IMG/VR virus record: IMGVR_UViG_3300042894_006439
Location: 1-56,556 of that record
Strand: one strand, 5' to 3'
DNA length: 56,556 bases
DNA from: a virus
In this document: piece after piece, positions 1,430 through 46,054 of the stretch
Position numbering within the stretch: the stretch's first letter is position 1
Layout: each line of letters starts with the position of its first letter
The notes under the pieces: model-generated
Databases searched by the model: none
The model's input: the letters and a program-made list of their open reading frames with translations, nothing else
Told to the model about the DNA's origin: nothing
Translations under genes and position numbers: made by a program

Positions 1430-3376
1430 ATGAAAAAAAATATCAACCAACCAATGAAAAAAATCTTAACCTTTATGGTAGGATTGTTCTTGTTATGTAG
1501 TTTTTCTACATTTGCACAGACTTGTCCTACGGCTCCTGGAACAGGAGTTTATGTTATGTTTGACAGTACTTACCCAGTTGGGTCAATTACTGCAGGGGAA
1601 ACTCATGTTAGAATGTGTTATGCTAACACTACTTCTACAAAAGTTTCAGGGGTTCAGTTTAGAGTATGGTACGACAAAAATGCATTTAACGGAGATGCAC
1701 CAGTCGTAACTTCTTTAAACACAACGTTCCCACAAAGTTTACAATATGTTACCAACGTTTCTGAAGGTAGCATTACAATTACCATTGTTTATACAGGTTC
1801 GTCATCTACTTTTACGATTCCTGATGGACAGTTATTTGATTTGAAATTAACTCACTCACCTAACTTCCAAAACTTTTCTGGTACAAACCCTATTGCCAAT
1901 ATGGCAGTAACTGGTGTAACTCCATTTCCGAATGGTGCATCAGATATAAATGGTATAGACACTAACTTAGTAGTTCATAACTATGGTGGGGTTTTCCAAC
2001 AACAAATGTTTGCTTACTCTGGTAACTTTAAAACAGTTACAGGAGCAGGTGCTAAAAACATTCCAGTTGTATTACAGAAAAAAGCAACAACTGCTTCTAC
2101 TTGGACAGACGTAACTACAGTTACTACTGATATAAATGGTGCTTTTGCTTTTAATGAACCAATTGACGTATCTTACTATGATGTAAGAGTACACGTTCAA
2201 GGTGATGTACTTCCGTTTGGTAACATCGTAACAACTGCAGATGCACAAAAAGCTAATGATATAGTTGTTGGAATGGCAACTCCTACTGGATTTGATTTCT
2301 ACTCTGCTGACGTAAATGGTTCTAACACTATTACTATTGCTGACGTTTACTCTATCTTTGGTAGAATTGCTGGTAGATTTACTACTTGGCCAAATAGCGT
2401 TAAAGATGTATTATTCTTTAGTGAAACTGAATACAACACAATTAACACTTCGCCAACTAACTTGAGATCTACAATTCCTGGTGTAACTATATTTGACAAA
2501 GTTGTTTTACCAGATGATCCACACACAGGAGTTAATTACTATGTATTAGGTGCAGGAGATGCTAACAACACAGGTTTCCAAATGGCTCGTATGGTGCCAA
2601 TTGAAATTGCTAACCCAGCAAATGCTCCTTATCACATAATTGACAAAACTATCGAATTCGATAATGTGAATAGAGAAATTGAATTGAACTTACCTACTTT
2701 AAATAACATTCAAGAAGGTAACTTAATCAATGTTCCTGTAAAAGTACTTTCTGCAAATCACCTTTTAGGTTCTATGCAATTCGGAGTATGGTATGATCAA
2801 TCCCTTTTAGATTTTAAAGGGATTGAAAGTACAACTTCAGTTTCAAGATGGATTTCTTACACTAACCCTGAAGAAAACATTATTGACTGGGGTGGATATG
2901 ATGCTTTCGGTGGATTAGACTTAGTTAAAAATAATGATGTGGCATTCACATTACAATTTGTTGCAAAACAACCACAGTCTAACTGGGGAACTTCTCCTTT
3001 AGTAGTTACTCGTAAAGCAGCAGGTGATGCACAAGCTCGTGATTTCAACATTAGACCAACAGATGGTTTAGTAGTTATCAATAAAATGAACAATGGTTCT
3101 TTAGTTGATCTAGATAAAGATTCAATGATCGTTTATCCTAACCCAACTAATGGAATGATTACAATTGCTTTTAGTGTTACAAAAGGAACTAAAGCTAATT
3201 TAGGAGTATATGACATCAATGGTAAAAAATGTATTGATGTTATATCAGATAATTTTCCAAAAGGAAAATATAGCTACACAGTTGATTTAGGTATTGTTTC
3301 TGAAGGAACTTATATCGCAGTTTTATCACAAGATACTAATAAACAATTAGTAGCAGAAAAAATAATCAAACAATAA
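1430..3376 (+). CDS. Secreted cohesin-like protein with T9SS C-terminal sorting domain
   Basis: 648 residues. A signal peptide ends at about residue 29 (core MKKILTFMVGLFLLCSFSTF, then AQ). Two cohesin-like or Ig-like beta modules follow (about 40-165, GVQFRVWYDKNAF; about 425-545, GSMQFGVWYDQSLLDF). Between them is a carboxypeptidase-regulatory-like stretch and a dockerin-like EF segment (SADVNGSNTITIADV, about 288-302). The last 85 residues are a Por/T9SS type A sorting domain (VYPNPTNG, LGVYDINGKK, EGTYIAVLS, KIIKQ), which in Bacteroidota sends cargo across the outer membrane and is then removed. The product is therefore predicted to reach the host surface through the host's own T9SS. The start may be 1430 or 1454; the latter gives a cleaner signal peptide. 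The next gene begins in an ATG overlapping the stop. Confidence 0.85.
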   Translation: MKKNINQPMKKILTFMVGLFLLCSFSTFAQTCPTAPGTGVYVMFDSTYPVGSITAGETHVRMCYANTTSTKVSGVQFRVWYDKNAFNGDAPVVTSLNTTFPQSLQYVTNVSEGSITITIVYTGSSSTFTIPDGQLFDLKLTHSPNFQNFSGTNPIANMAVTGVTPFPNGASDINGIDTNLVVHNYGGVFQQQMFAYSGNFKTVTGAGAKNIPVVLQKKATTASTWTDVTTVTTDINGAFAFNEPIDVSYYDVRVHVQGDVLPFGNIVTTADAQKANDIVVGMATPTGFDFYSADVNGSNTITIADVYSIFGRIAGRFTTWPNSVKDVLFFSETEYNTINTSPTNLRSTIPGVTIFDKVVLPDDPHTGVNYYVLGAGDANNTGFQMARMVPIEIANPANAPYHIIDKTIEFDNVNREIELNLPTLNNIQEGNLINVPVKVLSANHLLGSMQFGVWYDQSLLDFKGIESTTSVSRWISYTNPEENIIDWGGYDAFGGLDLVKNNDVAFTLQFVAKQPQSNWGTSPLVVTRKAAGDAQARDFNIRPTDGLVVINKMNNGSLVDLDKDSMIVYPNPTNGMITIAFSVTKGTKANLGVYDINGKKCIDVISDNFPKGKYSYTVDLGIVSEGTYIAVLSQDTNKQLVAEKIIKQ

Positions 3377-3729
3377 TGAGTTTAAAAACATTCTTAGGTG
3401 GAAGTAGTGAGTATGTAAAAGTAGATGATAAAAATCGTTTTTACTTTATGCTACAACAAATGCAATCTAATCGTTGGAGAATAACAGCAATCGTATTAGG
3501 ATTATTCTTTATGATTATTATGGGAATAAATTCTGGTATATTCTTTGGAGTAACAGTAGGAGAAGATTGGAAAGAGTTATTACTTATTCTTTTAGGTGCA
3601 TTTGTAGGAAATCTTAATAAAGTAGTTGACTATTGGTTCAACTCAGAAGATAGAGATAAAATGCTTATTCAGAAAGTAGATGAGGAAGATGGTGTTACAC
3701 TATCTAACACAGCTGATACTGAACAATAA
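3376..3729 (+). CDS. Small two-helix membrane protein, possible holin
   Basis: 117 residues. Two hydrophobic segments are visible: about residues 37-57 (AIVLGLFFMIIMGINSGIFF) and 68-80 (LLLILLGAFVGNL). They are followed by a charged cytoplasmic-type tail (DYWFNSEDRDKMLIQKVDEEDG). The start overlaps the previous stop (TAATG at 3374-3378), so it is translationally coupled to the T9SS cargo gene. Length, two helices and a charged tail fit a holin or another small phage membrane protein, but nothing proves lysis function. Its position at the head of an envelope-protein operon also fits an export helper. Confidence 0.7.
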   Translation: MSLKTFLGGSSEYVKVDDKNRFYFMLQQMQSNRWRITAIVLGLFFMIIMGINSGIFFGVTVGEDWKELLLILLGAFVGNLNKVVDYWFNSEDRDKMLIQKVDEEDGVTLSNTADTEQ

Positions 3730-3744
3730 AATAAAAATAAAATT

Positions 3745-4065
3745 ATGTCAGAAGAAACACAAGATCATAATGATGGATCATGGTCAGGATTAAAGAAAAC
3801 AATAATCGGAGGATTAACAACTTTAATCACAGCAGGTGGAGTTTGGATATCAACTCAATTATTTGGTGGGCAATCAGAAGATGAAGAGAAACCAAAAACA
3901 GAAGTTGCCGCACCAGCACCAGTTGTAGTTAATTTAACTAACAACAACACTAATCAACAAAAACAACAAGGTGGTGGTACAACAACTATCATTAAAGAAA
4001 AAACTGTTGAGAAAGCTACACCAGCTGTAACACCGGCTAAACCAAAAGAAGAAGAACCTTGGTAA
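3745..4065 (+). CDS. Single-pass membrane protein with Pro/Ala/Gln-rich tail
   Basis: 106 residues. A weakly hydrophobic segment (TIIGGLTTLITAGGVWIS, about 19-36) is followed by an acidic stretch and then low-complexity sequence rich in Pro, Ala, Asn and Gln (PAPVVVNLTNNNTNQQKQQG, then KATPAVTPAKPKEEEPW). The design is a membrane anchor plus an extended periplasm-spanning tail. This would fit a spanin-like or envelope-bridging role next to the putative holin, but no family is recognised. A terminator follows at 4081-4113, which closes this transcription unit. Confidence 0.7.
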   Translation: MSEETQDHNDGSWSGLKKTIIGGLTTLITAGGVWISTQLFGGQSEDEEKPKTEVAAPAPVVVNLTNNNTNQQKQQGGGTTTIIKEKTVEKATPAVTPAKPKEEEPW

Positions 4066-4080
4066 AAAACCAAAAATAAA

Positions 4081-4113
4081 AAAGGGATGGTTTTAAACCA
4101 TCTCTTTTTTTTT
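4081..4113 (+). terminator. Intrinsic terminator
   Basis: Hairpin GATGGTT-TTA-AACCATC, extended by flanking A/G and T/C pairs and followed by a run of T's. It ends the 1430-4065 unit and separates it from the CsgG-like gene. Confidence 0.8.
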
Positions 4114-4133
4114 CTAAAAAATAAAAAAATGTA

Positions 4134-4844
4134 ATGAAAAACCTACTATTATTTATAATATTTTCTCTTATAGGATTATCAGCAACTGCTCAAGTTATTG
4201 GTAGTACTAAAACAGAATCTTATCAAGCAGAATTTGAGAAAAAACAATCTATCAATGTTGTTGCTGACTATGATGGTGAACCAATTCCAGTACAAGTACT
4301 TTCAATTGGTATCAATGATGATGTTTATGCAATGTACCCAGAACTTAAAGATAAAAGAGTTGGATTAGGAGTTGCAAACATCGTATTAGAATACTTAGAG
4401 ATGACAAATCGTTTTGTATTTACAGAAGATAAAAATGAAATCAAACAAAAAATGATTGCTCAAGATAAGGCATCTGCAAAGGGTATATCATCAAATGAGA
4501 TTAAAGTGAAGGGTAATGTCCTTTTAGCAAAATACTTTGTTTATATCGAAGTATATGACTTCTCTGTATCTGATGAAGAAGAACTTACTGTTGGTTCTGC
4601 AGAGTTAAAACAAAAAACTATACTTGGTCTTCAAGTTAGATTCGTTGATGCACAAACTGGAGAAGTTATTACTGGTTCAGGAACAAGTGAAGCGGTTACT
4701 ATAAAGAAAGCAACTTTACTTGATGGTGTTGATGAAGTTAAATTTAATCAATCAACTATTGGTATTACAACAAAGAAATCTCTTGAAACCGCTGCTTCAA
4801 GAATTATATCAAAAATGATTAAAAAAGGAGTATTCACTAAATAA
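4134..4844 (+). CDS. CsgG-like outer-membrane secretion channel protein
   Basis: 236 residues. A signal peptide (MKNLLLFIIFSLIGLSATAQ) is followed by a CsgG/HfaB-type domain: VGLGVANIVLEYLEMTNRF (about 75-93), then DKASAKGISSNE, LAKYFVYIEVYDF and LGLQVRFVDAQTGEVI (about 163-178), and a final amphipathic helix. CsgG forms the nonameric pore that exports curli subunits. Curli-type CsgG is a lipoprotein, but no lipobox cysteine is seen here, so anchoring differs. CsgG homologues are known in other phages, with unclear roles. The next gene overlaps its end (TAATG at 4842-4846) and encodes a large exported repeat protein, the obvious candidate partner. Confidence 0.75.
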   Translation: MKNLLLFIIFSLIGLSATAQVIGSTKTESYQAEFEKKQSINVVADYDGEPIPVQVLSIGINDDVYAMYPELKDKRVGLGVANIVLEYLEMTNRFVFTEDKNEIKQKMIAQDKASAKGISSNEIKVKGNVLLAKYFVYIEVYDFSVSDEEELTVGSAELKQKTILGLQVRFVDAQTGEVITGSGTSEAVTIKKATLLDGVDEVKFNQSTIGITTKKSLETAASRIISKMIKKGVFTK

Positions 4845-7057
4845 TGAAAAAATTACTTACATTACTTTTTATATTAGTAGGTCTAACTAGTTTTGCACAA
4901 GCTAGTTATGACTATACTTATATTGAACCCTGTTCTGGTAAGTCAAAGTCTTTGACTATACCTATTGGAGCACCGGGTAGTAATGTAACTGTAAATTACT
5001 ATGGAAATGTTGCGACATTTAATAGTGTGGATTTTAATAATGGTGTATTCCAAAATTGGATGAATAATATTGCGGGAACTAATACAGGTCAGCCGTGTGA
5101 TCAAATAGCAACTATTTTAACAAATAATATAAATATGACTGTTACTCAGAATGTTATTAGTACTGTTATAAATGTTGCTACTATAACAAATATGATGAGT
5201 GATCTTCTATCAGATGTTGGTGGTGTGATGTCAGGTGACTTAGCCAATGCGTTAAATAATAGTGAGAATAGTGAATCAGAAAAGGAAGATAAGAAAAATT
5301 CTAATATGAGTTCTACTAATGTTTCAACCAATTCAAGTTCTACTAATGGTTCTACTGGTTCAACTAACGGTGGTTCTACTAATGTTTCAACCAATTCAAG
5401 TTCTAATGGTTCTACTAATGTTTCAACCAATTCAAGTTCTACTAACGGTTCTAATGGTTCTACTAACGGTGGTTCTACTAATGGTTCTACTAACGGTTCT
5501 AATGGTTCTACTAATGTTTCAACCAATTCAAGTTCTACTAACGGTTCTAATGGTTCTACTAATGGTTCTACTAATGGTTCTACTAACGGTTCTAATGGTT
5601 CTACTAATGGTTCTACTAACAGTTCTAATGGTTCAACCAATTCAAGTTCTACTAATGGTTCTACTAATGGTTCTACTAACGGTTCTAATGGTTCTACTAA
5701 TGGTTCTACTAATGGTTCTACTAATGGTTCAACCAATTCAAGTTCTACTAATGGTTCTAATGGTTCTACTAACGGTTCTAATGATTCAACTAATTCAAGT
5801 TCTACTAATGGTTCTAATGGTTCTAATGGTTCTACTAACGGTTCTAATGGTTCTACTAACGGTTCTAATGGTTCTACTAACGGTTCTAATGGTTCTACTA
5901 ATGGTTCTACTAATGGTTCAACCAATTCAAGTTCTACTAATGGTTCTACTAATGGTTCTACTAACAGTTCTAATGATTCAACCAATTCAAGTTCTACTAA
6001 TGGTTCTAATGGTTCTACTAATTCAAGTTCAACTAACGGTTCAACCAATTCAAGTTCTACTAATGGTTCTAATGGTTCTACTAACAGTTCTAATGATTCA
6101 ACCAATTCAAGTTCTACTAATGGTTCTACTAATGGTTCTACTAATGGTTCAACTAATGGTTCTACTAATGGTTCAACTAGTCCAAATGTATCAACTGATA
6201 GTTCTACATCAACTACAACTACTCAAAACGGTTCTGGATCAGGTTCAACAGCGAATGCTGTTTCAAATGCTGAAGACAATTCAAAAGGAGAAGATAAAAA
6301 AGATGATCCAAAGAATACTTCAAGTAGTTCAAGTTCTCTTAATACGTCAACTACTATTGCGACTGCTGAAGATAATACAAGTTCTGGTGGTAAGGGAAAT
6401 AAAAGTGAGAAGAAAACGGGTTCTATGATTGGAACTGGTGATATTGTTGTAATGAAAAGTGCAGAGGACCCTACTGCAAAAAATCAAGTTAGATTAACAA
6501 GTTCATTAACTAAGGCAAACACTGATAACACAAGAGTTAAAGGAGTATTGGCAAACTTTACGTCAGTAGTAAATAATACAAACGTTACTTTCTATAAGGC
6601 TTGGGTATTTAAAAAGTCTAAACTAACTTTCATTGCAGCAAACTCATCAATGATGAACTTTGAAAAAGATTTCTTTAATACAACTACTACAATTGTTTCT
6701 AAAAGATACAGAGGTAACTGGAAAAAACTAACTACGATGGCCGGTTTAAACTATACATTCGGTAATTATGGTGATGCAAAGTTTATGAATGTCTCTGCAA
6801 TTGGTGGTGGTTTTTACTCTTATAATATAAATAAAAAAATATCAGGTTCAGTCTTGATTATTGGTGTGTACTCACCATTCACACAATTCTATGATGGTAG
6901 ATGGTGGGAAAGTAGTACACTTATCGTTCCTTATTCTACCTGGGATTATAAAATTACAAAGACATTTAAGTTTAATGTAAGTTTCTCAGGAGTATATGAA
7001 ATGAATAAAAACATGTTAAACTATCAAGTTTTAACAGGTGGAAAAATAATGTTTTAA
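4844..7057 (+). CDS. Large exported Ser/Thr/Asn/Gly repeat protein with barrel-like C-terminus
   Basis: 737 residues. A signal peptide (MKKLLTLLFILVGLTSFAQA) comes first, then an N-terminal domain of about 135 residues with two cysteine-containing segments. A low-complexity region from about 156 to 447 is built of STNG, SNG, STNSS and NVSTNSS units. A charged linker follows, then about 200 residues of alternating, aromatic-rich strands (from about 530) ending in LLNYQVLTGGKIMF-like sequence, as in outer-membrane beta-barrels. It is likely a surface-exposed stalk on an outer-membrane base. It is coupled to the CsgG-like gene upstream and lies 1 base from the next gene. The repeat DNA should be unstable in length. 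The function is not known; adhesion, superinfection exclusion or receptor masking are possible. Confidence 0.8.
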   Translation: MKKLLTLLFILVGLTSFAQASYDYTYIEPCSGKSKSLTIPIGAPGSNVTVNYYGNVATFNSVDFNNGVFQNWMNNIAGTNTGQPCDQIATILTNNINMTVTQNVISTVINVATITNMMSDLLSDVGGVMSGDLANALNNSENSESEKEDKKNSNMSSTNVSTNSSSTNGSTGSTNGGSTNVSTNSSSNGSTNVSTNSSSTNGSNGSTNGGSTNGSTNGSNGSTNVSTNSSSTNGSNGSTNGSTNGSTNGSNGSTNGSTNSSNGSTNSSSTNGSTNGSTNGSNGSTNGSTNGSTNGSTNSSSTNGSNGSTNGSNDSTNSSSTNGSNGSNGSTNGSNGSTNGSNGSTNGSNGSTNGSTNGSTNSSSTNGSTNGSTNSSNDSTNSSSTNGSNGSTNSSSTNGSTNSSSTNGSNGSTNSSNDSTNSSSTNGSTNGSTNGSTNGSTNGSTSPNVSTDSSTSTTTTQNGSGSGSTANAVSNAEDNSKGEDKKDDPKNTSSSSSSLNTSTTIATAEDNTSSGGKGNKSEKKTGSMIGTGDIVVMKSAEDPTAKNQVRLTSSLTKANTDNTRVKGVLANFTSVVNNTNVTFYKAWVFKKSKLTFIAANSSMMNFEKDFFNTTTTIVSKRYRGNWKKLTTMAGLNYTFGNYGDAKFMNVSAIGGGFYSYNINKKISGSVLIIGVYSPFTQFYDGRWWESSTLIVPYSTWDYKITKTFKFNVSFSGVYEMNKNMLNYQVLTGGKIMF
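5312..6186 (+). repeat. Degenerate tandem repeat, 12/9-base units (TCTACTAATGGT and TCTAATGGT)
   Basis: About 875 bases of imperfect tandem repeats encode Ser-Thr-Asn-Gly and Ser-Asn-Gly units, with recurring longer blocks (TCAACCAATTCAAGTTCTAC). All unit lengths are multiples of three, so gain or loss of units changes protein length without breaking the frame. This is a likely recombination and slippage hotspot and a place where short-read assembly may be wrong. Confidence 0.95.
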
Positions 7058-7058
7058 T

Positions 7059-7505
7059 ATGAAAAAAATAGTATTAGTATCAGTAGCCTTATTTTTAATG
7101 GCATTTACAAAACCTTGTTACACAGTAACAGAAATTAAGTCATCAGTTGATGCACCAGAAATGAAAAAGGAAAGAGTAGTTTTTGGTATTAAACAAATTA
7201 CAGAAGAAGTTTTATCAGAAAACTTTGATTTATGTCAAGATGGTAAACCAATTGTGGTAGAGATAGTTAGTATTGAAGCACCAACAGTTGGTATGTCTAT
7301 TGGTCCATTTATGAAAGTAAGTAAAGATACTGAAGTTAAAGTTAAAATTACAAAAGATGGTGAAGAATTTGAAGGAGTAGGAACTGCAAAAACATCAGTG
7401 ACTGCAACATTCATTGATTTGAATGATGAAAATTTACCATTTAATAAAACCTCATTTGCTGGGGCATTAAAAAAAAGTATAGAAGATGCAGTTTATAAAA
7501 TGTAA
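7059..7505 (+). CDS. Exported hypothetical protein
   Basis: 148 residues. It has an N-terminal signal-like segment (MKKIVLVSVALFLMAFTKP) with a cysteine at residue 20. The body is probably all periplasmic (VVFGIKQITEEVLSEN; KPIVVEIVSIEAPTVG; KVKITKDGEEFEGVGTAKTS), and its alternating strands followed by a C-terminal helix recall small outer-membrane-associated assembly factors. No family is recognised with confidence. It begins 1 base after the repeat-protein gene and its end overlaps the start of the next gene by 20 bases, so it belongs to the CsgG-like operon and may be an accessory of that export system. Confidence 0.75.
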   Translation: MKKIVLVSVALFLMAFTKPCYTVTEIKSSVDAPEMKKERVVFGIKQITEEVLSENFDLCQDGKPIVVEIVSIEAPTVGMSIGPFMKVSKDTEVKVKITKDGEEFEGVGTAKTSVTATFIDLNDENLPFNKTSFAGALKKSIEDAVYKM

Positions 7506-7974
7506 ATTATTTTTACTTATACTATTATTTTCTTTTACCGTATCAGCACAAATAAAAGTTGATAGAGCTGGTGATTTTTGGGACTTAGAGATTAAAAAAT
7601 CTTTAATACAAATTGAGAAGATAGATCCATTTATGTATGATTATGTAAAAACAAATGTAGATAGAATTAGTGTTTGGAATGGTGATTTTAATTCATTTGA
7701 AGTTATCAATGGTGAGAGAGTTATATTTATATCATCTAAGAATTTTGGAAGAGGATCTATAAATAATTTATCTTCTACTATTATCCATGAATCTTATCAT
7801 ATTGCACATAGAGAAGAACATAACTCAGTTTGTAGTGAAGAAATGCATGCTTATTTATTTGAACTAAACTTTTTATTTAAGATAAAAGACGTTGAAACTT
7901 GGTTAGTTGAGTTTGTTTATAATAAAGCTATGGAGTATAGAACAATGATAGAAAAAGGTACTTGTAATAAGTAA
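7486..7974 (+). CDS. Secreted HExxH metallopeptidase-like protein
   Basis: 162 residues. A signal peptide (KLFLLILLFSFTVSAQ) is followed by a compact domain with STIIHESYHIAHREEH (about 97-112). This contains an HExxH zinc motif (H101-E102-x-x-H105) in a helix, followed by SEEMHAYLFEL, which could supply a third ligand. This is the arrangement of small gluzincin-type peptidases. It lacks obvious propeptide or substrate domains. The start overlaps the previous gene by 20 bases, so it is co-translated with the envelope module, suggesting processing of a surface or periplasmic target. Proteolytic activity is inferred only from the motif. Confidence 0.7.
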   Translation: MQFIKCKLFLLILLFSFTVSAQIKVDRAGDFWDLEIKKSLIQIEKIDPFMYDYVKTNVDRISVWNGDFNSFEVINGERVIFISSKNFGRGSINNLSSTIIHESYHIAHREEHNSVCSEEMHAYLFELNFLFKIKDVETWLVEFVYNKAMEYRTMIEKGTCNK

Positions 7975-9634: not shown

Positions 9635-11524
9635 TTACTTACTTGTTTCATCAGAAACGTCCTCATAACTTACATCTTGAACATCGTCTGAACTTTCGTT
9701 AGTTGGTTCAGGCTCGTTTTGAGATTGTTCGTACAATTTAGCACTGATTGCATGCCAAGAATCACTTAGTTTTTTAGAACTTTCGTCGATTGCATCAACA
9801 TCTTGATCAGCGTAAGCTTTTTTCAATTCATCTAGGTCTATACCTAAAGCTCTCTTGTCTTCCTCTGTTAGTTTTTCATCAAACTCTTTCATTTGTTTTT
9901 CTGTTTGGAAGATTAAGTTGTCAGCACCGTTAAGTTTGTCAACTTTTTCTCTTTCAATTCTATCAGATTCTGCATTAGCTTCAGCTTCTGCCTTCATATT
10001 CTCAATTTCTTCTTTTGTTAATTGAGAACCACCTTCAATTCGGATTTTGTTTTCTTTACCAGTAGCTTTATCTTTCGCGGTTACTGAAAGTATGCCGTTG
10101 GCATCGATATCCAAAATTACTTCCACTTGTGGAATCCCTCTTGGTGCAGGTGGAATACCATCTAAATGGAATCTACCTAAAGAACGATTGTCTCTTGCCA
10201 TAGGTCTTTCACCTTGAAGACAGTGGATCTCTACAGAAGATTGATTATCTGCTGCAGTAGAGAATGTTTCACTTTTTCTTGTAGGAATAGTAGTATTAGC
10301 TTCAATTAATTTAGTAAACACACCACCCATTGTTTCAATACCAAGTGAAAGAGGGGTTACATCTAATAGTAATACGTCAGTAATACCACCAGTCAACACG
10401 GCACCTTGAATAGCAGCTCCTAATGCAACAACTTCATCTGGGTTTACAGATTTGTTTGCTTTCTTACCAATGAATGATTCGATTGCTTCTTGAATAGCTG
10501 GGATTCTTGTAGAACCACCAACCAAGATAACTTCATCAATGTCAGCTGGTTTTAATTTAGCACTTTTAAGAGCAGACTTTGCACAATCAATAGCTCTTTT
10601 AACTAATGAACTAGTCATTTGGTCAAATTTAGCTTTAGTCAATTGTTTTACAAAGTGTAAAGGTTGATTGTCTCTTGATGTGATGTAAGGTAGATTAATG
10701 TCAGTTGTTGTAGAAGAAGATAATTCAATCTTAGCTTTCTCAGCAGCTTCTTTTAATCTTTGTAATGCCATAGCATCTTTTGATAAATCCACATCATTTT
10801 CAGATTTGAATTCTTGAACCATCCAAGTAATGATTTCGTTATCAAAGTCGTCACCACCTAAGTGAGTATCACCGTCAGTAGATTTTACTTCAAAAACACC
10901 GTCTCCAATTTCTAATACAGATACGTCATGAGTTCCCCCACCACAGTCAAATACTAAAATTTTAGACTCGTCATTTTTCTTATCTAAACCATACGCTAAA
11001 GCAGCGGCAGTTGGTTCATTGATAATTCTTTCAACTTTCAAACCAGCGATTTCACCAGCTTCGATTGTTGCGGTTCTTTCTGCATCACCGAAGTAAGCAG
11101 GAACAGTGATAACTGCTCTTGTGATTTCACATCCTAAATAATCTTCAGCAGTTTTTTTCATTTTTTGTAAAATCATTGCTGAGATTTCTTGTGGAGTATA
11201 TACTCTGTCTCCAATTCTAACACCAGGTACATTAGAGCCAGTTTTTTCTACTTTATAAGGAGTTCTTTTAATTTCATCTGAACAAGATGAGAAATCTTTC
11301 CCTATAAATCTTTTGATTGAGTAAACAGTTTGTTCTGGGTTAGTAACTGCTTGTCTTTTTGCAGGGTCTCCCACTTTTCTATCATCTTTCATGAAGCCTA
11401 CAATAGAAGGTGTTGTTCTTTTACCTTCTGAATTGGAGATTACAATTGGTTCTCCTCCCTCTACTACTGCAACACATGAGTTGGTAGTTCCTAAGTCAAT
11501 TCCAATAATTACGTCTTTTGCCAT
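9635..11524 (-). CDS. dnaK: Hsp70 chaperone DnaK
   Basis: 629 residues, full length for DnaK. The ATPase domain comes first: [18 protein letters not shown] (residues 7-24), then [30 protein letters not shown] and a phosphate loop reading [12 protein letters not shown], where most DnaKs have VFDLGGGTFDVS. The substrate domain follows, with the linker [19 protein letters not shown], then a lid and an acidic tail ([16 protein letters not shown]). Catalytic residues look intact. The Leu to Cys and Phe to His changes in the phosphate loop are unusual. Bacterial-type DnaK is rare in phages; here grpE and dnaJ lie 4-6 kb away on the other strand, so the phage supplies the whole Hsp70 cycle, probably for folding or assembly of its proteins. 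Confidence 0.97.
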
Positions 11525-15589: not shown

Positions 15590-16042
15590 ATGGAAAACGA
15601 AGAACAAAAAGAAATTTTAGAGGAAACTGTTGTTGAAGTAACAGTAGAGCAAAAACTACAAGAGTCTGAGGACAAATACTTACGTCTTTATGCAGATTTT
15701 GAAAACTACAAAAGAAGAGTTCAGAAGGATAAAGAAGAATTAGTATTAAATACAAAAACTAAAATGTTATCATCTGTTATTGATATGGATAATGACGTTA
15801 CATTAGCTTTGAAATCAATGGATAAAGTTGATAAAGGAGTTTTACTAATTGCACAAAAATTAGAAACTTTCTTAAAGTCACAAGGTATTGAACCAATTCA
15901 AACTGAAACTTATGATGATGAGTTACATGAAGTTATTAGTGTAACTGAATCAGGTGCCAAAAAAGTAATAGACGTAGTATCTAAAGGTTATACATTGAAT
16001 GGTAAACCTTTCAGATATCCAAAAGTTGTTTTAGGAAAATAG
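15590..16042 (+). CDS. grpE: GrpE nucleotide exchange factor
   Basis: 150 residues, short for GrpE (about 180-200) because the disordered N-terminus is reduced. The long helix includes DKYLRLYADFENYKRRVQKD (about 28-47), the GrpE dimerisation signature. The C-terminal beta-wing is present with YDDELHEVISVTESG (about 105-119), VISKGYTLNGK-like sequence and FRYPKVVLGK at the end, as in bacterial GrpE (R-P-A-x-V-x-V). It should release ADP from the phage DnaK. The stop TAG shares its G with the GTG start of the next gene. Confidence 0.93.
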   Translation: MENEEQKEILEETVVEVTVEQKLQESEDKYLRLYADFENYKRRVQKDKEELVLNTKTKMLSSVIDMDNDVTLALKSMDKVDKGVLLIAQKLETFLKSQGIEPIQTETYDDELHEVISVTESGAKKVIDVVSKGYTLNGKPFRYPKVVLGK

Positions 16043-16873: not shown

Positions 16874-17941
16874 ATGGCAAAAGATTATTATAGCGTACTA
16901 GGTGTTGATAAAACAGCATCAGAAGATGAGATTAAGAAGTCTTATCGCAAAATGGCAATGAAGTGGCATCCTGATCGAAATCCGGATAACCCAGAAGCAG
17001 AAGTAAAGTTTAAAGAAGCGGCAGAAGCTTATGATGTACTTTCAGATCAAGGTAAAAAATCTAATTATGATAGATTCGGATCTGCAGATGGTGGTGGTAA
17101 TCCATTTGGTGGTAATCCATTCGGTGGTGGGAGAGGTCACGGTTTTAACATGGATGATATTTTCAGTCAATTTGGAGATATATTCGGTGGCGGTCAAAGA
17201 CATCATCAACAACAACAAAGACAAGCAAAAGGCTCTGATTTGAGAATCAAAGTTTCTTTAACTATTGAAGAAATAATCAATGGTGTCACAAAGAAATTAA
17301 AATATAAAAGACATGAACCTTGTAATCCTTGTAGTGGGAAAGGTGGTTCCGATTTAAGAAGTTGTATTCCTTGTAATGGTTCTGGACAAAGAACTGTAGT
17401 ACAAAATACACCATTTGGACAAATTAGAAATGTATCTATGTGTCCTGATTGTAATGGAAGTGGATCTCAAATAGCAAATAAATGTAATGTTTGTCACGGA
17501 CAGGGAACAACTGTAAGAGAACAAGCGGTTGATGTTGAAATACCTAAAGGTGTTGGAAATGGAATGCAAATGAGTATGGCTGGATTTGGTAATCATACAA
17601 TCAATGGAGTTCCTGGTGATTTATATATTGTCTTTGATGAAATTAGAGAACCGTATTTTAGAAGAGAAGGTGGTAATATTATAGTTGATTCAGAGATTTC
17701 AGTTATTGATGCAATAATTGGTGCCAATATATCGGTTAAATCACCACACGGTGATATAATGGTTGCTATTGAACCAGGTACAGAACACGGTAAAATTATA
17801 AGAATAAATGGTAAAGGAATTCCAGATGCTCATGAAGGTATGGGTAGTTTAGTAATAAATATTAAAATTAGAATACCAAAGTCAATAAACCTTGAACAAA
17901 AGGCAATGTTGGAAAAACTAAAAAATGCTGGTAATTTTTAA
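16874..17941 (+). CDS. dnaJ: Type I J-domain co-chaperone DnaJ
   Basis: 355 residues with the complete type I architecture. The J domain (1-70) contains [12 protein letters not shown] with the HPD motif that stimulates DnaK. A Gly/Phe-rich region (72-115: [19 protein letters not shown]) follows, then a four-repeat zinc region with [24 protein letters not shown] and CNVCHGQG (about 150-215). Two C-terminal beta-sandwich domains bind substrate. A glutamine/histidine run (HHQQQQRQ) lies after the G/F region. All eight zinc cysteines are present, so it should hold unfolded clients and pass them to the phage DnaK. The next gene starts within its stop (TAATG). Confidence 0.96.
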
Positions 17942-19628: not shown

Positions 19629-20648
19629 TTACTTGTTAAATCTATCAAAAGCATTCTGTGATATTTTAACCCATTGAGCTTGACCAATAAAATCTTCTAA
19701 AGTTCTACTATTTGAATAAGACATTGCAGATCTTAAATAATCAGTAAAGTTTTCTCTCCATCCAGATAAAGTGTATTCTACTTTATTGTATTTAGAAATA
19801 CCTTCACCAGTTTTAAGTTCTTTCCTATTCCAAGACTTCTGAACTTCTTTTGTTGACATTCCTCTATAATACTTCCAAACATCAATACCTTCACTAAAGT
19901 TAGTGATAGCTTGTTCTTCTGTTATTAAGTGAAAGACACCAGTAGAATCTTTTAAGAAGTTATCAGAACAACTTTCTAAACATTTGTTGAATATCCCACC
20001 TAACATACAAGCATCTGCACCAAGTGCTAATGCCTTAATTATATCAGAGAAACTTCTAAACCCACCATCTGCTAGGATTTTAGTAGGATTATCAAACTCT
20101 TTGGATATTTCATAACACTCATTTACTAATGATGCCATTGGAAAATGTATTGAAACATTTGCGGATGTAGTACAGGCAGAACCTCCACCAATACCAACTC
20201 TAATCCAATCAACACCAATCTCACAATACTTTCTATAAGTATCAGGGTTAGCAATGTTACCAACCATTAGTTCAATGTTATTACCATATTTCTCTTTTAT
20301 TCTTTTAGAGATTTCCCACAACTTAAACATATGGCCGTTAGCTACGTCAATTAGTACTTTTTTAGGTAGCTCTTTATCAGACTCAAATAACTCAATTATT
20401 TCATCAAGTCCGTAAGAATAGAAGTAATTATCATTCTTTAAACTATCAAATTTAACATTTCTCGGTAAACAAACGTTTACATTGTTTAATTCAAATTCGG
20501 ATATGTTATTTTCATCAATAACCATATCCATTGGTGCGGTAAAGATAGGAAGTTTTCCATTTTGTAATGGATTTATCTCACTACGAGAAGCAATAGTACT
20601 CAGAGTATCTGGTATTATTGTGATGTCATTCCAATCAATTTTTTTCAT
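19629..20648 (-). CDS. GMP reductase / IMP dehydrogenase family enzyme
   Basis: 339 residues, the length of GMP reductase (about 345) and without the CBS domains of IMPDH. GMP reductase converts GMP to IMP with NADPH; IMPDH runs IMP to XMP with NAD. Seen are the N-terminal IPDTLSTIASRSEI, PIFTAPMDMV, VGNIANPDTYRKYCEIGVDW (about 129-148), the active-site loop VGIGGGSACTTS with C159 and T160, and ILADGGFRSFSDIIKALALG followed by DACMLGG (phosphate binding). A mobile-flap equivalent (YRGMSTKEVQKSW) is present. The Cys-Thr pair favours GMP reductase. It would adjust guanine pools in a phage that also carries ribonucleotide reductase. Confidence 0.85.
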   Translation of the reverse strand: MKKIDWNDITIIPDTLSTIASRSEINPLQNGKLPIFTAPMDMVIDENNISEFELNNVNVCLPRNVKFDSLKNDNYFYSYGLDEIIELFESDKELPKKVLIDVANGHMFKLWEISKRIKEKYGNNIELMVGNIANPDTYRKYCEIGVDWIRVGIGGGSACTTSANVSIHFPMASLVNECYEISKEFDNPTKILADGGFRSFSDIIKALALGADACMLGGIFNKCLESCSDNFLKDSTGVFHLITEEQAITNFSEGIDVWKYYRGMSTKEVQKSWNRKELKTGEGISKYNKVEYTLSGWRENFTDYLRSAMSYSNSRTLEDFIGQAQWVKISQNAFDRFNK

Positions 20649-30975: not shown

Positions 30976-31105
30976 AAAGATTTTCAATCTTAATTTTTCT
31001 TCTATTTCTCTTACTAAATAGTTCTTTCATGATGTCTGCATCAATTGACTTTGTCAGCTCATCTGCTAACATTTGTGTTATTTTATCTACTACATCGATA
31101 CTCAT
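30968..31105 (-). CDS. 45-residue conserved-motif peptide
   Basis: A short frame with ATG at the complement of 31103-31105 and TAA at 30968-30970, encoding MSIDVVDKITQMLADELTKS followed by IDADIMKELFSKRNRRKIKI and a short end. The motif (amphipathic helix, then K-S-I-D-x-D-I-M-K-x-L) is a recognisable type of short phage peptide. Its 5' part is duplicated at 32077-32145, which argues that it is or was a real coding sequence. It overlaps the tail-tube gene end by 8 bases on the other strand. Confidence 0.6.
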   Translation of the reverse strand: MSIDVVDKITQMLADELTKSIDADIMKELFSKRNRRKIKIENLFK

Positions 31106-31110
31106 ATTGA
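31046..31110. repeat. Direct repeat copy 1 (about 65 bases)
   Basis: This stretch and 32088-32152 agree at about 80% of positions in the same orientation; both contain the core ATTTTATCTACTA. They bracket a cassette of two genes. Copy 1 is the 5' part of the intact 45-residue gene. Confidence 0.75.
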
Positions 31111-31713
31111 ATATTTTGATTTATATAAAATCTCATCATTACTTTTAACTTCATTAAAAATAGGTAGATCGGATGTAACACTCATTGTAGTATCAAAGTA
31201 AACCCCTTTTATAATAGATTTATTTTTAAACTTTCTAAATAGATAGTCGTCACCACACCAAATTTTTAATTCTTCTGGTATTTGTACATAATATTTTTTA
31301 TTAAAAATAATCATACAACCAAATCCCCAATTTCTATTATCAGTCTCTTCTAATCTAAAGTTAGTATCACTTGGATCTTTATAAGATTGTTCTGCAACTC
31401 CTATTATTGTTTCATCTGCAACACTTAGTTGATTAAAAAAGTTCACATCAAATACTATATCATCATTTAATAAAGCAACTATTTCAAAATTAGATTTTGA
31501 TACTCCTAAATTCCAGGAAGGGTTTACGTAGATATTTTGATCCATCTTTACATAAATTACTTTATTATATTGATTAGTATCTATATTTTTAGATTCATAA
31601 TCATTGTCAATAATTAAAATCTCCCCAATTACATCACATTTATTTAAGTTATTTAATAATATTTCTAACTTATTTGATTTCCACATTGTTGGTATTACTA
31701 TACTTATTTTCAT
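31102..31713 (-). CDS. GT2-type glycosyltransferase
   Basis: 203 residues. It starts MKISIVIPTMWKSNKLEILL, a GT-A fold N-terminus, with EILIIDNDYES (about 31-41), NPSWNLGVSKSNFEIVALLN (about 64-83) and DD at about 84-85 as the metal-binding pair. It is short compared with typical GT2 enzymes (about 250-300) and may lack the acceptor half. It overlaps the upstream gene by 4 bases. It sits at the distal end of the island between two direct repeats, so it may have been acquired as a cassette. Donor and acceptor are unknown. Confidence 0.8.
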   Translation of the reverse strand: MKISIVIPTMWKSNKLEILLNNLNKCDVIGEILIIDNDYESKNIDTNQYNKVIYVKMDQNIYVNPSWNLGVSKSNFEIVALLNDDIVFDVNFFNQLSVADETIIGVAEQSYKDPSDTNFRLEETDNRNWGFGCMIIFNKKYYVQIPEELKIWCGDDYLFRKFKNKSIIKGVYFDTTMSVTSDLPIFNEVKSNDEILYKSKYSI

Positions 31714-32042
31714 TTTACTTTCTTATTATTTAGTTTAGAATCTATATATTCTTTTATCCATTCATTATTAAAATATTTATCTATTAAATAATTTTGATTT
31801 TTTAAACAGTTTTCATATAAATTCTGATCATTTTTTAAAATAATGATCTTTTCTATAAATTCCTCAGCAGATTTAAAAATGGTTTCCTTACTAAAGTAGT
31901 CATTATTTTCAAATGGAAATACTAAGTCTGTATATTCCATCATCATTAGTGAGTTTTTTGATAGACCCTCAAAAAATCTTTTACATAAGTGTCCAGTACC
32001 ATTTAGGTTTAGAAAGAATTTATATTTTAAAAATGTATTCAT
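31710..32042 (-). pseudogene. Truncated glycosyltransferase (C-terminal part only)
   Basis: The open frame from ATG 32042 gives 110 residues: FLNLNGTGHLCKRFFEGLSK, TDLVFPFENNDYFSKETIFK and a final helix. This resembles the C-terminal donor-binding half of a GT-B or GT10-like enzyme. Upstream the same frame continues without an ATG (reading SSHIDVYNNIPPDIF) and then meets a copy of the N-terminus of the 45-residue phage peptide in another frame. The N-terminal half is therefore missing, and the gene looks like a recombination remnant. It may still be translated, with its end coupled to the GT2 gene. Confidence 0.65.
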
Positions 32043-32076
32043 GAATATATCTGGTGGTATATTATTATAAACATCT

Positions 32077-32145
32077 ATATGACTACTGATTTTGTTAGTT
32101 CGTCAGCCAACATTTGTGTCATTTTATCTACTATATCTATATTCA
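32077..32145 (-). pseudogene. Duplicated 5' fragment of the 45-residue gene
   Basis: On the minus strand this reads MNIDIVDKMTQMLADELTKS, then VVI and a stop (the stop codon is formed at the junction). It matches the first 20 residues of the gene at 30968-31105 with a few changes. The copy ends exactly where the truncated glycosyltransferase sequence begins, marking a recombination junction. Confidence 0.7.
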
Positions 32146-32152
32146 TATTTAC
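32088..32152. repeat. Direct repeat copy 2 (about 65 bases)
   Basis: Second copy of the repeat at 31046-31110, about 80% identical by eye. Divergence between copies implies the event is not recent. Confidence 0.75.
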
Positions 32153-32589
32153 ACATATTTTTCTACATAATCAGAACATATTGCATATGCTTTGTCAATG
32201 TCTTTAAATTCTTTAGTTTCTGGCATTACTGCAACTGAATTACTACTTAGTTCTTTACCTGGATATGTCCAAAAATAACCCATTGAAGTAATAGTGAAAT
32301 CATCTTCTTGATGCCAAAAGTAATTTACATCATATCCACAATTCTTTAATAGAACCAGTGATTCTAAATTTTTACAATGTATCCACAATTTTTCTATTCT
32401 ATCACGTAACCATCTAAAGTCAACTCCGTATTGAGGTTTATCGTGTCCAAGATATATTATATTATCAATAAACCAAATATCAATCTCTACATCAAATCCT
32501 TTTTTAATTGCCATATCAATATAATTTGGTTCATTTTCATATGACTCAAATTTTCCGTTAATGTTTCCTCTATGTGATATTAGTTTCAT
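32149..32589 (-). CDS. Short GDPD-like phosphodiesterase-fold protein
   Basis: 146 residues. It starts MKLISHRGN, the start of glycerophosphodiester phosphodiesterases (the His-Arg pair). NEPNYIDMAIKKGFDVEIDI (about 19-38) supplies the expected E-x-D metal pair and IIYLGHDKPQYG the second catalytic His. GDPDs are normally about 240-300 residues, so this is a half-length TIM-barrel form. Here it sits 2 bases after the RuBisCO-like gene, in a nucleotidyltransferase/cupin/methyltransferase group, so it may hydrolyse or transfer a phospho-linked sugar substituent. Activity is uncertain because of the short length. Confidence 0.7.
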   Translation of the reverse strand: MKLISHRGNINGKFESYENEPNYIDMAIKKGFDVEIDIWFIDNIIYLGHDKPQYGVDFRWLRDRIEKLWIHCKNLESLVLLKNCGYDVNYFWHQEDDFTITSMGYFWTYPGKELSSNSVAVMPETKEFKDIDKAYAICSDYVEKYV

Positions 32590-32591
32590 TA

Positions 32592-33770
32592 TTATTTCTT
32601 ACCCCATTTTTCTATTGCTACCTGGTATTCACCGGATAGATTACCGTCAATTGATTGTCTCATTGCCTTTGTACCAGCTAGTGTACCATTTGGATGACCG
32701 TGTATGGCACCACCTACGTTAGCCATATAATCAATTCCAACTTTAGAATTAATCCAATCAGTTAGTCCAGGATGGAATCCACAACTAAGTGCAGGCATTA
32801 CATTATACTTATGTAATGTTTCAATAGAGTTTATTACTTCACTTTCATCCCATTTATAATACCCACCAATCATTCCGACATGTATAAAGTCAACTCCCAT
32901 CATTCCTGCTAATTTAGAGATAACGTTCCAGTCAATGTGAAAGTCATGGTTTTTATTAGTCAATATTTTATCACCACTTTTTTGAAAATGTATAAATATT
33001 GGTAAGTCTAATTCTCTTACTGCCTTATAGACTCCTAGTCCACACCAAAAGTTAATATGAACTGCATTACCACCTAATTCATAAACTTTTTTTACTCTAT
33101 CAATTATATATGGATAGTCTGAATGTATAGAAACTGCATAAATAACATTTTTGTCTTTTAAGTATTCCATAATTAGTGGTACTCTTTCTTCGATAGTACA
33201 GAAAGATGGGTTACTTAAAATCTCATCTTCTTTAATAAAGTTGACACCCCCTTCTACCAGTTCTTTAACCATCTCCAAAAGAGTTTGTGGTGAGATACCA
33301 GTCTTTGGCTTAACAATAGCACCAAGTATTGGTTTATCAAAACACTTTGTATATTCTCTTATTCCTTTGATTCCGAATTTTGGACCTAAAAATAATTTTT
33401 CAATTGATTCTGGAAATATAATATTTAAAACTTGACATTTTATAATATTATCAATATCTAATTGACCACCCATTATATTTACTAATAAATGTGAAATACC
33501 ATCTGTTTTGAAGTCTATATTTATAGTTGGAAAAGCAATATCAACAGTTCCTAATTTTTTAGTTTTTAATAATTCTTCATCTTCTAATATTATACAGGAA
33601 TGATTATCAAACAACTCCTCTGATTCCCATTGATTTCTGACATTTGGATTACCAACACTTTGACCTATTGCAAGATTCCAAGAAGCATCTCTAAGTGTTG
33701 TAGTAGACTCTAAGAAGTAGGTTACTATAAAGTAGTCTTCTTTATTTATTTTTTTTCTAAAAATATTCAT
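32592..33770 (-). CDS. RuBisCO-like protein (form IV-like large subunit homologue)
   Basis: 392 residues, somewhat shorter than RuBisCO (about 450-475). Clear family motifs: GAIVKPKTGIS (150-160; K154 and K156 correspond to K175 and K177 of spinach), GGVNFIKEDE (174-183; K180 is the lysine carbamylated in RuBisCO, and D182 and E183 are the metal ligands), FIHF (about 249-252), DFIHVGMIGG and GGAIHGHPNGTLAG. Loop 6 reads GGYYKWDE rather than VGKLEG, and the Asn equivalent to N123 appears replaced by Gly. These changes argue against CO2 fixation and for a RuBisCO-like enolase, isomerase or decarboxylase. It sits within a sugar-nucleotide cluster, so a sugar-phosphate substrate is likely. Very unusual in a phage. 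Confidence 0.88.
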   Translation of the reverse strand: MNIFRKKINKEDYFIVTYFLESTTTLRDASWNLAIGQSVGNPNVRNQWESEELFDNHSCIILEDEELLKTKKLGTVDIAFPTINIDFKTDGISHLLVNIMGGQLDIDNIIKCQVLNIIFPESIEKLFLGPKFGIKGIREYTKCFDKPILGAIVKPKTGISPQTLLEMVKELVEGGVNFIKEDEILSNPSFCTIEERVPLIMEYLKDKNVIYAVSIHSDYPYIIDRVKKVYELGGNAVHINFWCGLGVYKAVRELDLPIFIHFQKSGDKILTNKNHDFHIDWNVISKLAGMMGVDFIHVGMIGGYYKWDESEVINSIETLHKYNVMPALSCGFHPGLTDWINSKVGIDYMANVGGAIHGHPNGTLAGTKAMRQSIDGNLSGEYQVAIEKWGKK

Positions 33771-33774
33771 AATT

Positions 33775-34482
33775 TTAATTTGTTTTTTTTATGTAAGCAG
33801 ATGGACAAATATAATTTAGATTTTTTATTTCTAAGTTCATCTCATTTAAAAATTTATCTACACCTTTAGATTCTGACCATTTTGAGTGTGCATACTCATC
33901 GAGTACAATTATACCACCTCTGGAGAGTCTATCCCAAAAGTTTTTAAGAGTATTATAAGTTGGTACTTCTAGATCTAAGTCAATATATAAAAGTGATATT
34001 TTAAATCCTGGATTATCTTCTATGTATTTTTTACTTGTTAGAGAAATATCACCTTTAACTAGTTCAAAGTCTTCATCTTTAAATCCATCTAGTTTAAGTT
34101 TACTATATAATTCAGATTTAAAATCTTTTTCATGTTCAAAGTTTCTTCCATTAAATAAAAGTGACATTGTTTTTTTATCCAAATTATCTAAATTTGATAA
34201 TAGATCTTTAGTGTCAAAAAAGTCAAAACCAACTACTCTTTTTAGTGAGTTTGGGTTCATTATTTTTTTTAATTTCAAGAAGGTATAGAAACCAGATCCT
34301 TTGAACACACCACACTCTACAATATCACCTGGGATATCTTTTACTTCATCATATAATAGTGTTCTTGCGACTAATTTATTAAAGACCTTTCTATCATTAC
34401 TCATAATAAATCCATTAAAGTTATCAAATAAACTTTGATTAGTATTTTCTATTTCTATTTCTTCAATATTCATGTTAGACAT
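33775..34482 (-). CDS. TylF-like SAM-dependent methyltransferase
   Basis: 235 residues from the ATG at 34482 (MSNMNIEEIEIENTNQSLFD); an upstream ATG at 34563 would overlap the cupin gene by 89 bases and is less likely. Motifs: GDIVECGVFKGSGFYTFL (SAM-binding motif I), VVGFDFFDT, LLYIDLDLEVPTYNTLKNFW (metal-binding D-x-D as in TylF/macrocin O-methyltransferase) and GGIIVLDEYAHSKW. TylF-type enzymes methylate sugar hydroxyls and need a divalent metal. It lies 4 bases before the RuBisCO-like gene and overlaps the cupin gene by 8 bases. It probably O-methylates a phage-made glycan. Confidence 0.85.
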   Translation of the reverse strand: MSNMNIEEIEIENTNQSLFDNFNGFIMSNDRKVFNKLVARTLLYDEVKDIPGDIVECGVFKGSGFYTFLKLKKIMNPNSLKRVVGFDFFDTKDLLSNLDNLDKKTMSLLFNGRNFEHEKDFKSELYSKLKLDGFKDEDFELVKGDISLTSKKYIEDNPGFKISLLYIDLDLEVPTYNTLKNFWDRLSRGGIIVLDEYAHSKWSESKGVDKFLNEMNLEIKNLNYICPSAYIKKTN

Positions 34483-34795
34483 TATATTTATCTTCCGGTA
34501 AGGATGGTGTTTTGATGACCAATATTTTACAATCTGTAATAAATATCGGTGTTGCAGTTTCATTTGGATCTATAATAAATATATCACCTTTTTGTATTTC
34601 TTTATCATTCATAATCATCTCACCTTCTACTAATAAATTAATTTCTGTTGCAATTTTATGAATATGAGGTGCCCAAAATTCACCTTTTTTATGTGTTAAA
34701 AGACCGACTTCAAAGCTTTTAGTTTTATAACAGGCTGGTTCAAAGTTACCAATAAACCAACCTCTGTAATATTCTTCTAATTTAGTTATTTTCAT
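34475..34795 (-). CDS. Single-domain cupin
   Basis: 106 residues. The cupin pattern is present: GEFWAPHIHKIATEINLLVE (about 38-57; H-x-H...E motif 1) and GDIFIIDPNETATPIFI (motif 2, with the usual His changed to Glu or Thr). The fold fits small sugar-epimerase or isomerase cupins and metal-binding sensors. With one ligand of motif 2 missing, catalysis is uncertain. It overlaps the nucleotidyltransferase gene by 14 bases and the methyltransferase gene by 8, so the three are made together. Confidence 0.8.
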   Translation of the reverse strand: MKITKLEEYYRGWFIGNFEPACYKTKSFEVGLLTHKKGEFWAPHIHKIATEINLLVEGEMIMNDKEIQKGDIFIIDPNETATPIFITDCKILVIKTPSLPEDKYNV

Positions 34796-35474: not shown

Positions 35475-35503
35475 ATTATTATTATTATTATTATTATTAT
35501 TAT
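35475..35503. repeat. Trinucleotide microsatellite (ATT)n directly at a start codon
   Basis: About nine and a half ATT repeats, read as AAT/TAA on the coding strand, placed immediately before the ATG of the nucleotidyltransferase gene. Length change would alter ribosome access or spacing rather than frame. Confidence 0.9.
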
Positions 35504-36255: not shown

Positions 36256-36258
36256 GTT

Positions 36259-37044: not shown

Positions 37045-37058
37045 TTCTATTTTTATTT

Positions 37059-38000: not shown

Positions 38001-38006
38001 TTTATT

Positions 38007-39523: not shown

Positions 39524-39524
39524 A

Positions 39525-40400: not shown

Positions 40401-40407
40401 ATTTATT

Positions 40408-42656: not shown

Positions 42657-42671
42657 TTAATCTATTATTTT

Positions 42672-45243: not shown

Positions 45244-45310
45244 GTGTAAATATTTTTGTATTTCTATATTCTAGTTAAAAGGACAATAGATTATGAGATA
45301 GTAAATCTCT

Positions 45311-46039: not shown

Positions 46040-46054
46040 ATTTTTTTATTTTTT

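Follow-up and report, generated by a model that had tools for sequence, protein, structure and literature searches.

Why would a phage carry a tightly packed run of genes for exported proteins? The question is raised by IMG/VR virus record IMGVR_UViG_3300042894_006439, a stretch of 56,556 bases that we analysed at full length (the window) and that belongs to a large phage of Bacteroidota-type bacteria. An earlier note, made from the sequence alone, described four signal-peptide genes at positions 4134-7974, for a CsgG-like pore, an STNG-repeat protein, a small exported partner and an HExxH peptidase, and proposed that together with an upstream cargo protein of the type IX secretion system (T9SS) they remodel the host surface. 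The observation proved real, and more conserved than its reader could know; the interpretation is partly supported. We find that the four genes belong to a larger module, common to many relatives of this phage, whose sequence suggests a phage-encoded, cellulosome-like display system. We give this reading, a phage-encoded envelope display module, a probability of roughly 0.45; remodelling of the host surface is plausibly the likeliest role, with lysis a serious rival.

Seven module genes, all on the + strand, run from 1430 to 7974 (Table 1), and we refer to their families in this order as c0, c8, c2, c1, c4, c3, and c5. All four open reading frames (ORFs) of the original group were confirmed: c1 and c4 overlap by 1 nt, c4 and c3 are separated by 1 nt, c3 and c5 overlap by 20 nt, and each of the four has a signal-peptide-like start. 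All signal peptides and membrane segments were assigned by visual inspection, and ORFs were called with a simple script, so gene starts may be wrong.

Relatives of c1 are frequent in viral contigs: a first scan gave 115, and a query with an alignment at least 461, the best 80 being retained in each case. Flavobacterium phage immuto contributes four further records with a relative. In a set of 84,980 species genomes, c1 relatives lie on three contigs of metagenome-assembled genomes (MAGs), which we take as binned phage contigs or prophages, and the family has no obvious host origin. Across 131 loci (window included), many of them broken off at contig ends, profiles match c0 in 124, c4 in 124, c2 in 115, c3 in 111, c5 in 77, c8 in 59, and a further small family, c6, in 63. 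These loci were picked by c1 similarity, so that c1 is present by construction, and family calls used profiles built from the same loci. Since some loci have near-identical contigs, we de-duplicated at 97%; the non-redundant counts vary slightly (70 or 71; 42 or 43), as the scripts de-duplicated in different orders and one named phage (L082) is included in the set of 43 loci and excluded from that of 42. In the 42 non-redundant loci whose flanks measure 7.5 kb or more on each side (full-flank loci), c0, c2, c1, c4, and c3 occur together in 41, and the four export genes are therefore part of a larger module. c4 is found in all 42, c8 or c6 in 36, and c5 in 28. Conservation of the gene set is far beyond chance.

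The named relatives are Flavobacterium Immutovirus phages, in which nearly all of these genes are annotated as "hypothetical"; the cultured carrier is Immutovirus immuto, grown on Flavobacterium sp. LMO8. Separately, we note a MAG contig binned to Sphingomonadaceae (L085, 80-8690) with a diverged copy of the module, an adjacent relative of a YkuD-like endolysin, and an ORF of 1039 amino acids (aa). The contig is probably phage-derived, so its host label is doubtful.

The upstream gene, c0, carries most of the argument for display. Its product had been proposed as T9SS cargo, and it matches both Por_Secre_tail (E 1.4e-10, 41.8 bits against a cut-off of 27) and Cohesin (PF00963; E 2.5e-8, 34.6 bits against 24.1) in Pfam above the cut-offs. 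With a C-terminal sorting domain and a signal peptide (the latter by eye), it has the traits of type A T9SS cargo. Upstream of the cohesin lies a dockerin-like segment, whose profile (A8) matches the PDB dockerin chain 4uyp_B (E 6.4e-5); the first calcium loop of its F-hand looks degenerate by eye. The window cohesin alone, searched against the PDB, gave only VacA (E 0.03), which we judged a chance match. T9SS tail, cohesin, and dockerin-like domain are present in 96 of 96 full-length c0 relatives, and we read c0 as a putative cohesin and dockerin-like scaffold with a T9SS tail.

Of the 97 loci for which 6 kb or more of downstream sequence is present, 73 have a second exported protein, c0b, 3′ of c4. 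Behind its signal peptide, c0b joins a variable head to a dockerin-like domain that is usually C-terminal. Profiles of the T9SS tail and of the cohesin, both derived from the upstream proteins, match all 96 full-length scaffolds and none of the 81 downstream c0b proteins. The variable heads are of C-type lectin, laminin-G, and PA14 types: a Pfam scan of 42 scaffold and partner proteins (E ≤ 0.1) returned Lectin_C 20 times, Dockerin_1 15 times, Laminin_G_3 five times, and PA14 once. The position of c0b, its lack of tail and cohesin, and its heads are independent facts. In nine of the 12 records searched there are exactly two dockerin-like places, mostly one in the scaffold and one in the partner.

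In immuto the scaffold is split. Gene 14 corresponds to residues 9-383 of window c0 and holds the dockerin-like part; gene 15 corresponds to residues 408-648, and Pfam places the cohesin and the T9SS tail on it. Each of the two has a signal-peptide-like start. Because one chain is here divided into two separately exported parts, the sequence suggests that the pieces associate with each other. Beside them, gene 13 joins a C-type lectin to a dockerin-like region, and both dockerin-like places of this phage are in partners or scaffold pieces.

Phage tails also carry lectin and Ig-like domains, and the module proteins might on that account be virion components and not host-surface proteins. The signal peptides on c0, c1, c4, c3, c5, and c0b, together with the T9SS tail on c0, point to export and make this the most improbable of the explanations considered here. 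A virion proteome of immuto was looked for, and the passages of PMC7077304 mention none.

The CsgG-like protein, c1, remains under the Pfam CsgG cut-off (PF03783; E 0.00097, 18.9 bits against 20.8), and three of 30 c1 members match this family at E ≤ 0.01. A structure prediction, which the earlier note had suggested for the protein together with its repeat partner and which we made for c1 alone, recovers the CsgG fold. The AlphaFold2 model, built from the family alignment, is of moderate confidence (pLDDT, the predicted local distance difference test score, is 71). Its top Foldseek matches are all CsgG (E 1.8e-8), and CsgG is again best by VIA-align, with a Z of 12-13 (top 13.2 over 153 residues) and 153-178 residues aligned at 3.0-4.8 Å. 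The next named secretion family is PelC (Z 10.6), and the surface-exclusion lipoprotein TraT reaches a Z of 8.2. On this modeling, c1 is predicted to have the CsgG fold.

The pore is another matter. Aligned with E. coli CsgG (MG1655), c1 has the same order of elements, but its first membrane hairpin has 22-23 residues in 25 of 30 aligned relatives (the other five lack anchors), compared with 27-28 in CsgG, and its second membrane region is ~10 residues shorter; the model has a single strand there and no predicted return strand. Because both hairpins are shortened and the second return strand is not predicted, it is doubtful that c1 forms a pore like that of CsgG, which has 36 strands; the barrel of this system appears to be a separate protein, c4. 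The missing lipobox is true of the window c1, where no lipobox Cys was found, and not of the family: among 70 non-redundant relatives, 24 have a lipobox (eight strict, 16 relaxed), and eight of the 70 ORFs have no readable N terminus.

The small exported partner, c3, has the expected signal-peptide start, and its likeness to CsgG had been missed. Compared with the c1 family by hhalign, it reaches a probability of 96.4 over 115 columns with helix matched to helix, whereas control families match through their signal peptides only; pairwise E-values are uncalibrated in this comparison, since unrelated families reached 9e-4 and 6e-5 via signal peptides. c3 looks like a second, shorter CsgG-type domain, and its Cys20 is invariant. 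A PDB match of c3 to ribosomal protein S1 (E 7e-4) covers a stretch of 48 residues only and was judged to be chance. PHROGs and NCBIfam gave no useful name for c1, c4, c3, or c5.

The repeat protein with a barrel-like end, c4, is much as first described. In the window, its STNG stretch is encoded by ~72 copies of a 12-bp unit; since its length and composition vary highly across relatives, it is best read as a linker. We modeled the structure on the copy from one relative (L031): a small N-domain is followed by a helix of 35 residues, then by a disordered stretch, and finally by 12 strands, the helix being placed inside the barrel lumen. The best structural match is the NalP translocator (Z 24.7, aligned from the helix onward), followed by other autotransporters, NanC/KdgM porins, and the amyloid secretion barrel FapF (Z 18.8). 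c4 is predicted from this model to end in a 12-strand outer-membrane barrel, as a protein separate from c1; a barrel as such is no rarity among the phage proteins of the viral structure library. NalP and FapF share the 12-strand barrel with a helix in its lumen. c4 differs from them by the long disordered linker between helix and barrel (~100 aa in L031, longer in the window) and by its would-be passenger, a small two-Cys domain, and the structural alignments have ~7%-10% identity.

A CsgG fold next to a FapF-like barrel recalls amyloid secretion, and a diverged curli- or Fap-like system, with c1 as secretion ring, c4 as channel, and the repeats as fibre-like material, would have a precedent in the complete type VIII secretion system of pelagiphages (PMC9599517). 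The shortened hairpins and a repeat that behaves as a linker of very variable length and make-up speak against it. Moreover, Pfam, PHROGs, and NCBIfam scans of the neighbouring window proteins returned no CsgF, CsgE, or CsgA/B partner, although remote ones could escape such scans. We consider this explanation highly improbable. The known phage curli modules (HTVC008M, Melnitz, and pelagiphage podoviruses) likewise encode a CsgG-fold envelope secretion protein, but theirs is 37%-40% identical to E. coli CsgG in HTVC008M and Melnitz and comes with CsgF (in pelagiphages also CsgA/B), whereas c1 is far more distant, its hairpins are shortened, and it is accompanied by a separate barrel and a T9SS scaffold. 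Another parallel is PelC, a CsgG-like ring lipoprotein without a pore of its own that is paired with the outer-membrane barrel PelB. Here, too, a CsgG-like protein that may form a ring is encoded beside a separate predicted barrel, but c4 is a 12-strand barrel with a helix and a disordered tether, and no polysaccharide synthesis gene was seen inside the module.

The remaining genes are small or enzymatic. c2 has one apparent membrane segment followed by an acidic Pro-rich tail. After an acidic stretch, this tail ends in Trp in every one of 64 non-redundant relatives, a conservation that points to a tip used in binding. We note that the tail (window 3745-4065 and relatives) is similar to acidic-aromatic tips with a partner-binding role. 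Two apparent membrane segments are seen in each of the small proteins c8 and c6, and library scans gave no name for c2, c8, or c6. In the peptidase, c5, the HExxH residues H101, E102, and H105, as well as E118 and E119, are invariant in all 17 aligned relatives; we predict an exported zinc metallopeptidase with a downstream Glu ligand. It has weak SprT-like and Tox-MPTase2 similarity, and searches with it gave no match in the PDB or in the phage records. An exported DNA/RNA non-specific endonuclease (PF01223, 1.1e-23) is encoded within the module or next to it in 12 of the 43 full-flank loci, for example at 2286-2864 of L018 and 11423-12010 of L041.

These enzymes and the universal T9SS tail could be accommodated by superinfection exclusion through saturation of the T9SS: c0 would be decoy cargo that keeps T9SS-dependent phage receptors off the surface, while c5 and the nuclease act on receptors or incoming DNA. 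Gliding and T9SS mutants of Flavobacterium are phage resistant. A decoy, however, would need no cohesin, dockerin-like, or lectin domains and no c1-c4 complex, and we regard this explanation as improbable. Phage-encoded T9SS cargo has itself been reported (PMC7468147): Cryophage proteins with type A sorting domains comprise an endoglucanase, a GH39, and a PA14 protein, and the available part of that text mentions no cohesin-dockerin module or CsgG-like partner. T9SS-domain proteins also occur near crAss-like BACON genes (PMC6949934).

The lysis role, which the earlier note missed along with two small inner-membrane genes of the module, has positional evidence in its favour. In a set of 40 records, five of them without a GH19 endolysin, this gene lies within 8 kb of c1 in 23 of the 35 contigs that hold one, compared with 5.7 expected under random placement; in contigs of at least 90 kb the figures are 11 of 22 and 2.2. 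These contigs are related and fragmentary, so this is an association, and a P-value would not come from independent events. A GH19 or YkuD-type endolysin is in the flank of 26 of 43 non-redundant full-flank loci, a holin family is also nearby in some, and c6 was found near c1 in 15 cases and near endolysin or holin genes in 12 of 32. Such proximity can mean a role in lysis, shared late timing, or local wall cutting for an envelope-spanning complex.

In this main rival, a role in the outer-membrane stage of lysis or egress, c2 (N-in, C-out) and c1 would replace the spanins, c8 and c6 would be holin-like, c4 would form a plugged pore that opens when the cell lyses, and debris would be cleared by c5 together with the exported nuclease. 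Bacteroides and Croceibacter phages are among those without recognised spanins, for which outer-membrane proteins could serve, and searches for spanins look for a lipoprotein gene beside one for a type II membrane protein (PMC6139136); c1 is predicted to be an outer-membrane lipoprotein in some relatives, and a lysis role has been proposed for the curli pore of Melnitz (PMC9004378). Two-component spanins do resemble c2 and c1 in pairing a small N-in inner-membrane protein with an exported protein facing the outer membrane. They differ in that c1 is a 236-aa CsgG-fold protein, usually without a strict lipobox (found in eight of 70, and none at all in the window), and in that no coiled coil is seen by eye in the c2 tail. 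Further, a T9SS scaffold of ~630 aa and lectins have no clear job in lysis, and the immuto module is located among replication and nucleotide genes. We hold lysis to be unlikely, yet worth serious attention.

Envelope display remains the reading that we favour. The exported envelope set, the T9SS cargo, the cohesin and dockerin-like scaffold, and the lectin partner all fit the surface remodelling first proposed, and in the envelope of the infected cell the module appears to assemble both a scaffold of cellulosome type and a complex that spans the membrane. From its anatomy, conservation, and predicted folds, we infer an assembly, a secretion route, and a purpose as follows. The host T9SS would place c0 on the surface of the infected cell, where it would polymerise, capture the lectin-bearing c0b through cohesin-dockerin contact, or both. 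c1 and c3 would form periplasmic rings beneath c4, as PelC does beneath PelB, and the Trp-ended tail of c2 would connect the inner membrane to this complex, which might anchor or secrete the lectin partner. The displayed lectins would then alter the binding properties of the cell, which would be protected against additional phages or adhere to its neighbours. No separate lectin partner was found in the window lineage, where the scaffold would work by itself or together with the N-terminal domain of c4. A fuller version, in which large Bacteroidota phages build a cellulosome-like coat from a T9SS-displayed scaffold and dockerin-tagged lectins with exchangeable heads, using two CsgG-like rings and a plugged 12-strand barrel as a private secretion and anchoring line, is possible and, as a whole, rather doubtful.

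Several points weigh against display. By sequence, the likeness of c1 to CsgG is weak: its profile matched no PDB chain at E ≤ 1, single-sequence hhalign with CsgG was not significant, and membership at the sequence level was rejected, so that only the fold comparison of the model is convincing. The part of c1-c4 in secretion is one that we infer. The Dockerin_1 matches are weak (best 2.6e-4), and c0b was found with the c0 profile, which contains the dockerin-like domain, so that its universal sharing is partly circular. The dockerin profile matches dockerins among solved structures; contact between cohesin and dockerin is here an assumption. No second dockerin protein was found in the window, L002, or L003, fragments with one dockerin-like place each; the window lineage may lack the lectin partner, or the partner may lie outside these fragments. 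Finally, the endolysin genes near the module in many relatives fit lysis as well. Compared with cellulosomes, the likeness lies in an anchored cohesin scaffold with dockerin-like exported partners, and the differences in phage encoding, anchoring by a T9SS tail, lectin heads instead of cellulases, and binding that is predicted. Among the papers listed by our searches of an open-access library, none was on phage-encoded cohesin-dockerin modules.

Whether the exported proteins are made as a block appears to differ among relatives. A terminator-like hairpin between c2 and c1 parts the T9SS and small-membrane genes from the four export genes, and because of it c0-c8-c2 and c1-c4-c3-c5 may be separate transcription units in the window. 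In some relatives (L025, L031), c2 and c1 almost touch. A promoter scan was uninformative (31 promoter-like sites in the window, fewer than the 45.8 of shuffles).

Table 1. Coordinates of the module genes, their domains, and the intervening hairpin in the window
Feature	Position	Strand	Basis or remark
Scaffold c0, 648 aa: signal peptide, N-terminal region, dockerin-like F-hand, cohesin, T9SS sorting tail (putative)	1430..3376	+	Pfam
Dockerin-like domain within c0	2195..2392	+	c0b-domain profile match, E 1.9e-18
Cohesin domain of c0, residues 418-545	2681..3064	+	Pfam
T9SS C-terminal sorting domain of c0, residues 568-645	3131..3364	+	Pfam, TIGR04183
c8, small inner-membrane protein, 117 aa, two apparent transmembrane segments, holin-like size	3376..3729	+	Family alignment
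c2, small protein with one transmembrane segment, 106 aa, disordered Pro-rich tail with terminal Trp	3745..4065	+	Topology inferred from charge
Terminator-like hairpin, then T run	4078..4110		RNA fold -16.3 kcal/mol, z -4.2; also in scan of - strand
c1, predicted CsgG-fold protein, 236 aa, shortened membrane hairpins, without lipobox here	4134..4844	+	
c4, predicted outer-membrane barrel protein, 737 aa: two-Cys N-domain, helix, STNG low-complexity linker, 12-strand barrel	4844..7057	+	
STNG tandem repeat, 12-bp unit, ~72 copies	5337..6179	+	
c3, small exported CsgG-like paralogue (putative), 148 aa, invariant Cys20	7059..7505	+	hhalign with c1 family
c5, predicted exported HExxH metallopeptidase, 162 aa	7486..7974	+	Motif invariant in 17/17 aligned relatives

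Elsewhere in the window, a long block on the - strand (31102-47032) holds sugar-nucleotide and glycosyltransferase-like genes, including GDP-mannose 4,6-dehydratase and epimerase (the rest by reading), and likewise points to a change in surface glycans. For the genus Immutovirus, genes for modified nucleotides and for the glycosylation of cell-surface components have been described (PMC11500664). At 32592-33770 (-), amid genes for sugar metabolism and glycosyltransferase-like genes, lies one for a RuBisCO large-chain family protein (PF00016, 1.5e-34), a RuBisCO-like protein on a phage contig. A chaperone set occupies 15590-16042, 47569-49674, 9635-11524, and 16874-17941; GrpE and ClpB-like members are named by Pfam, and DnaK- and DnaJ-like members by sequence reading only. 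The - strand also encodes the UV-endonuclease UvdE (374-1297; PF03851, 1.7e-48) and an IMP dehydrogenase/GMP reductase domain protein (19629-20648; PF00478, 2e-38).

There is no agreement on the roles suggested for phage curli-type pores, which include lysis, uptake, and sibling capture. The module described here, which is more complete and very strongly conserved, names testable partners, namely, a T9SS scaffold, dockerin-like lectins, a barrel, and two CsgG-like proteins, and with Immutovirus immuto as a cultured carrier its role is directly testable. If lysis is the true role, the module would address the missing spanins of some Bacteroidota phages. If display is, these phages may change what the surface of their host binds, and cohesin-dockerin assembly, once confirmed, would make this a virus-made display system of the cellulosome type and a possible modular display tool in Bacteroidota.

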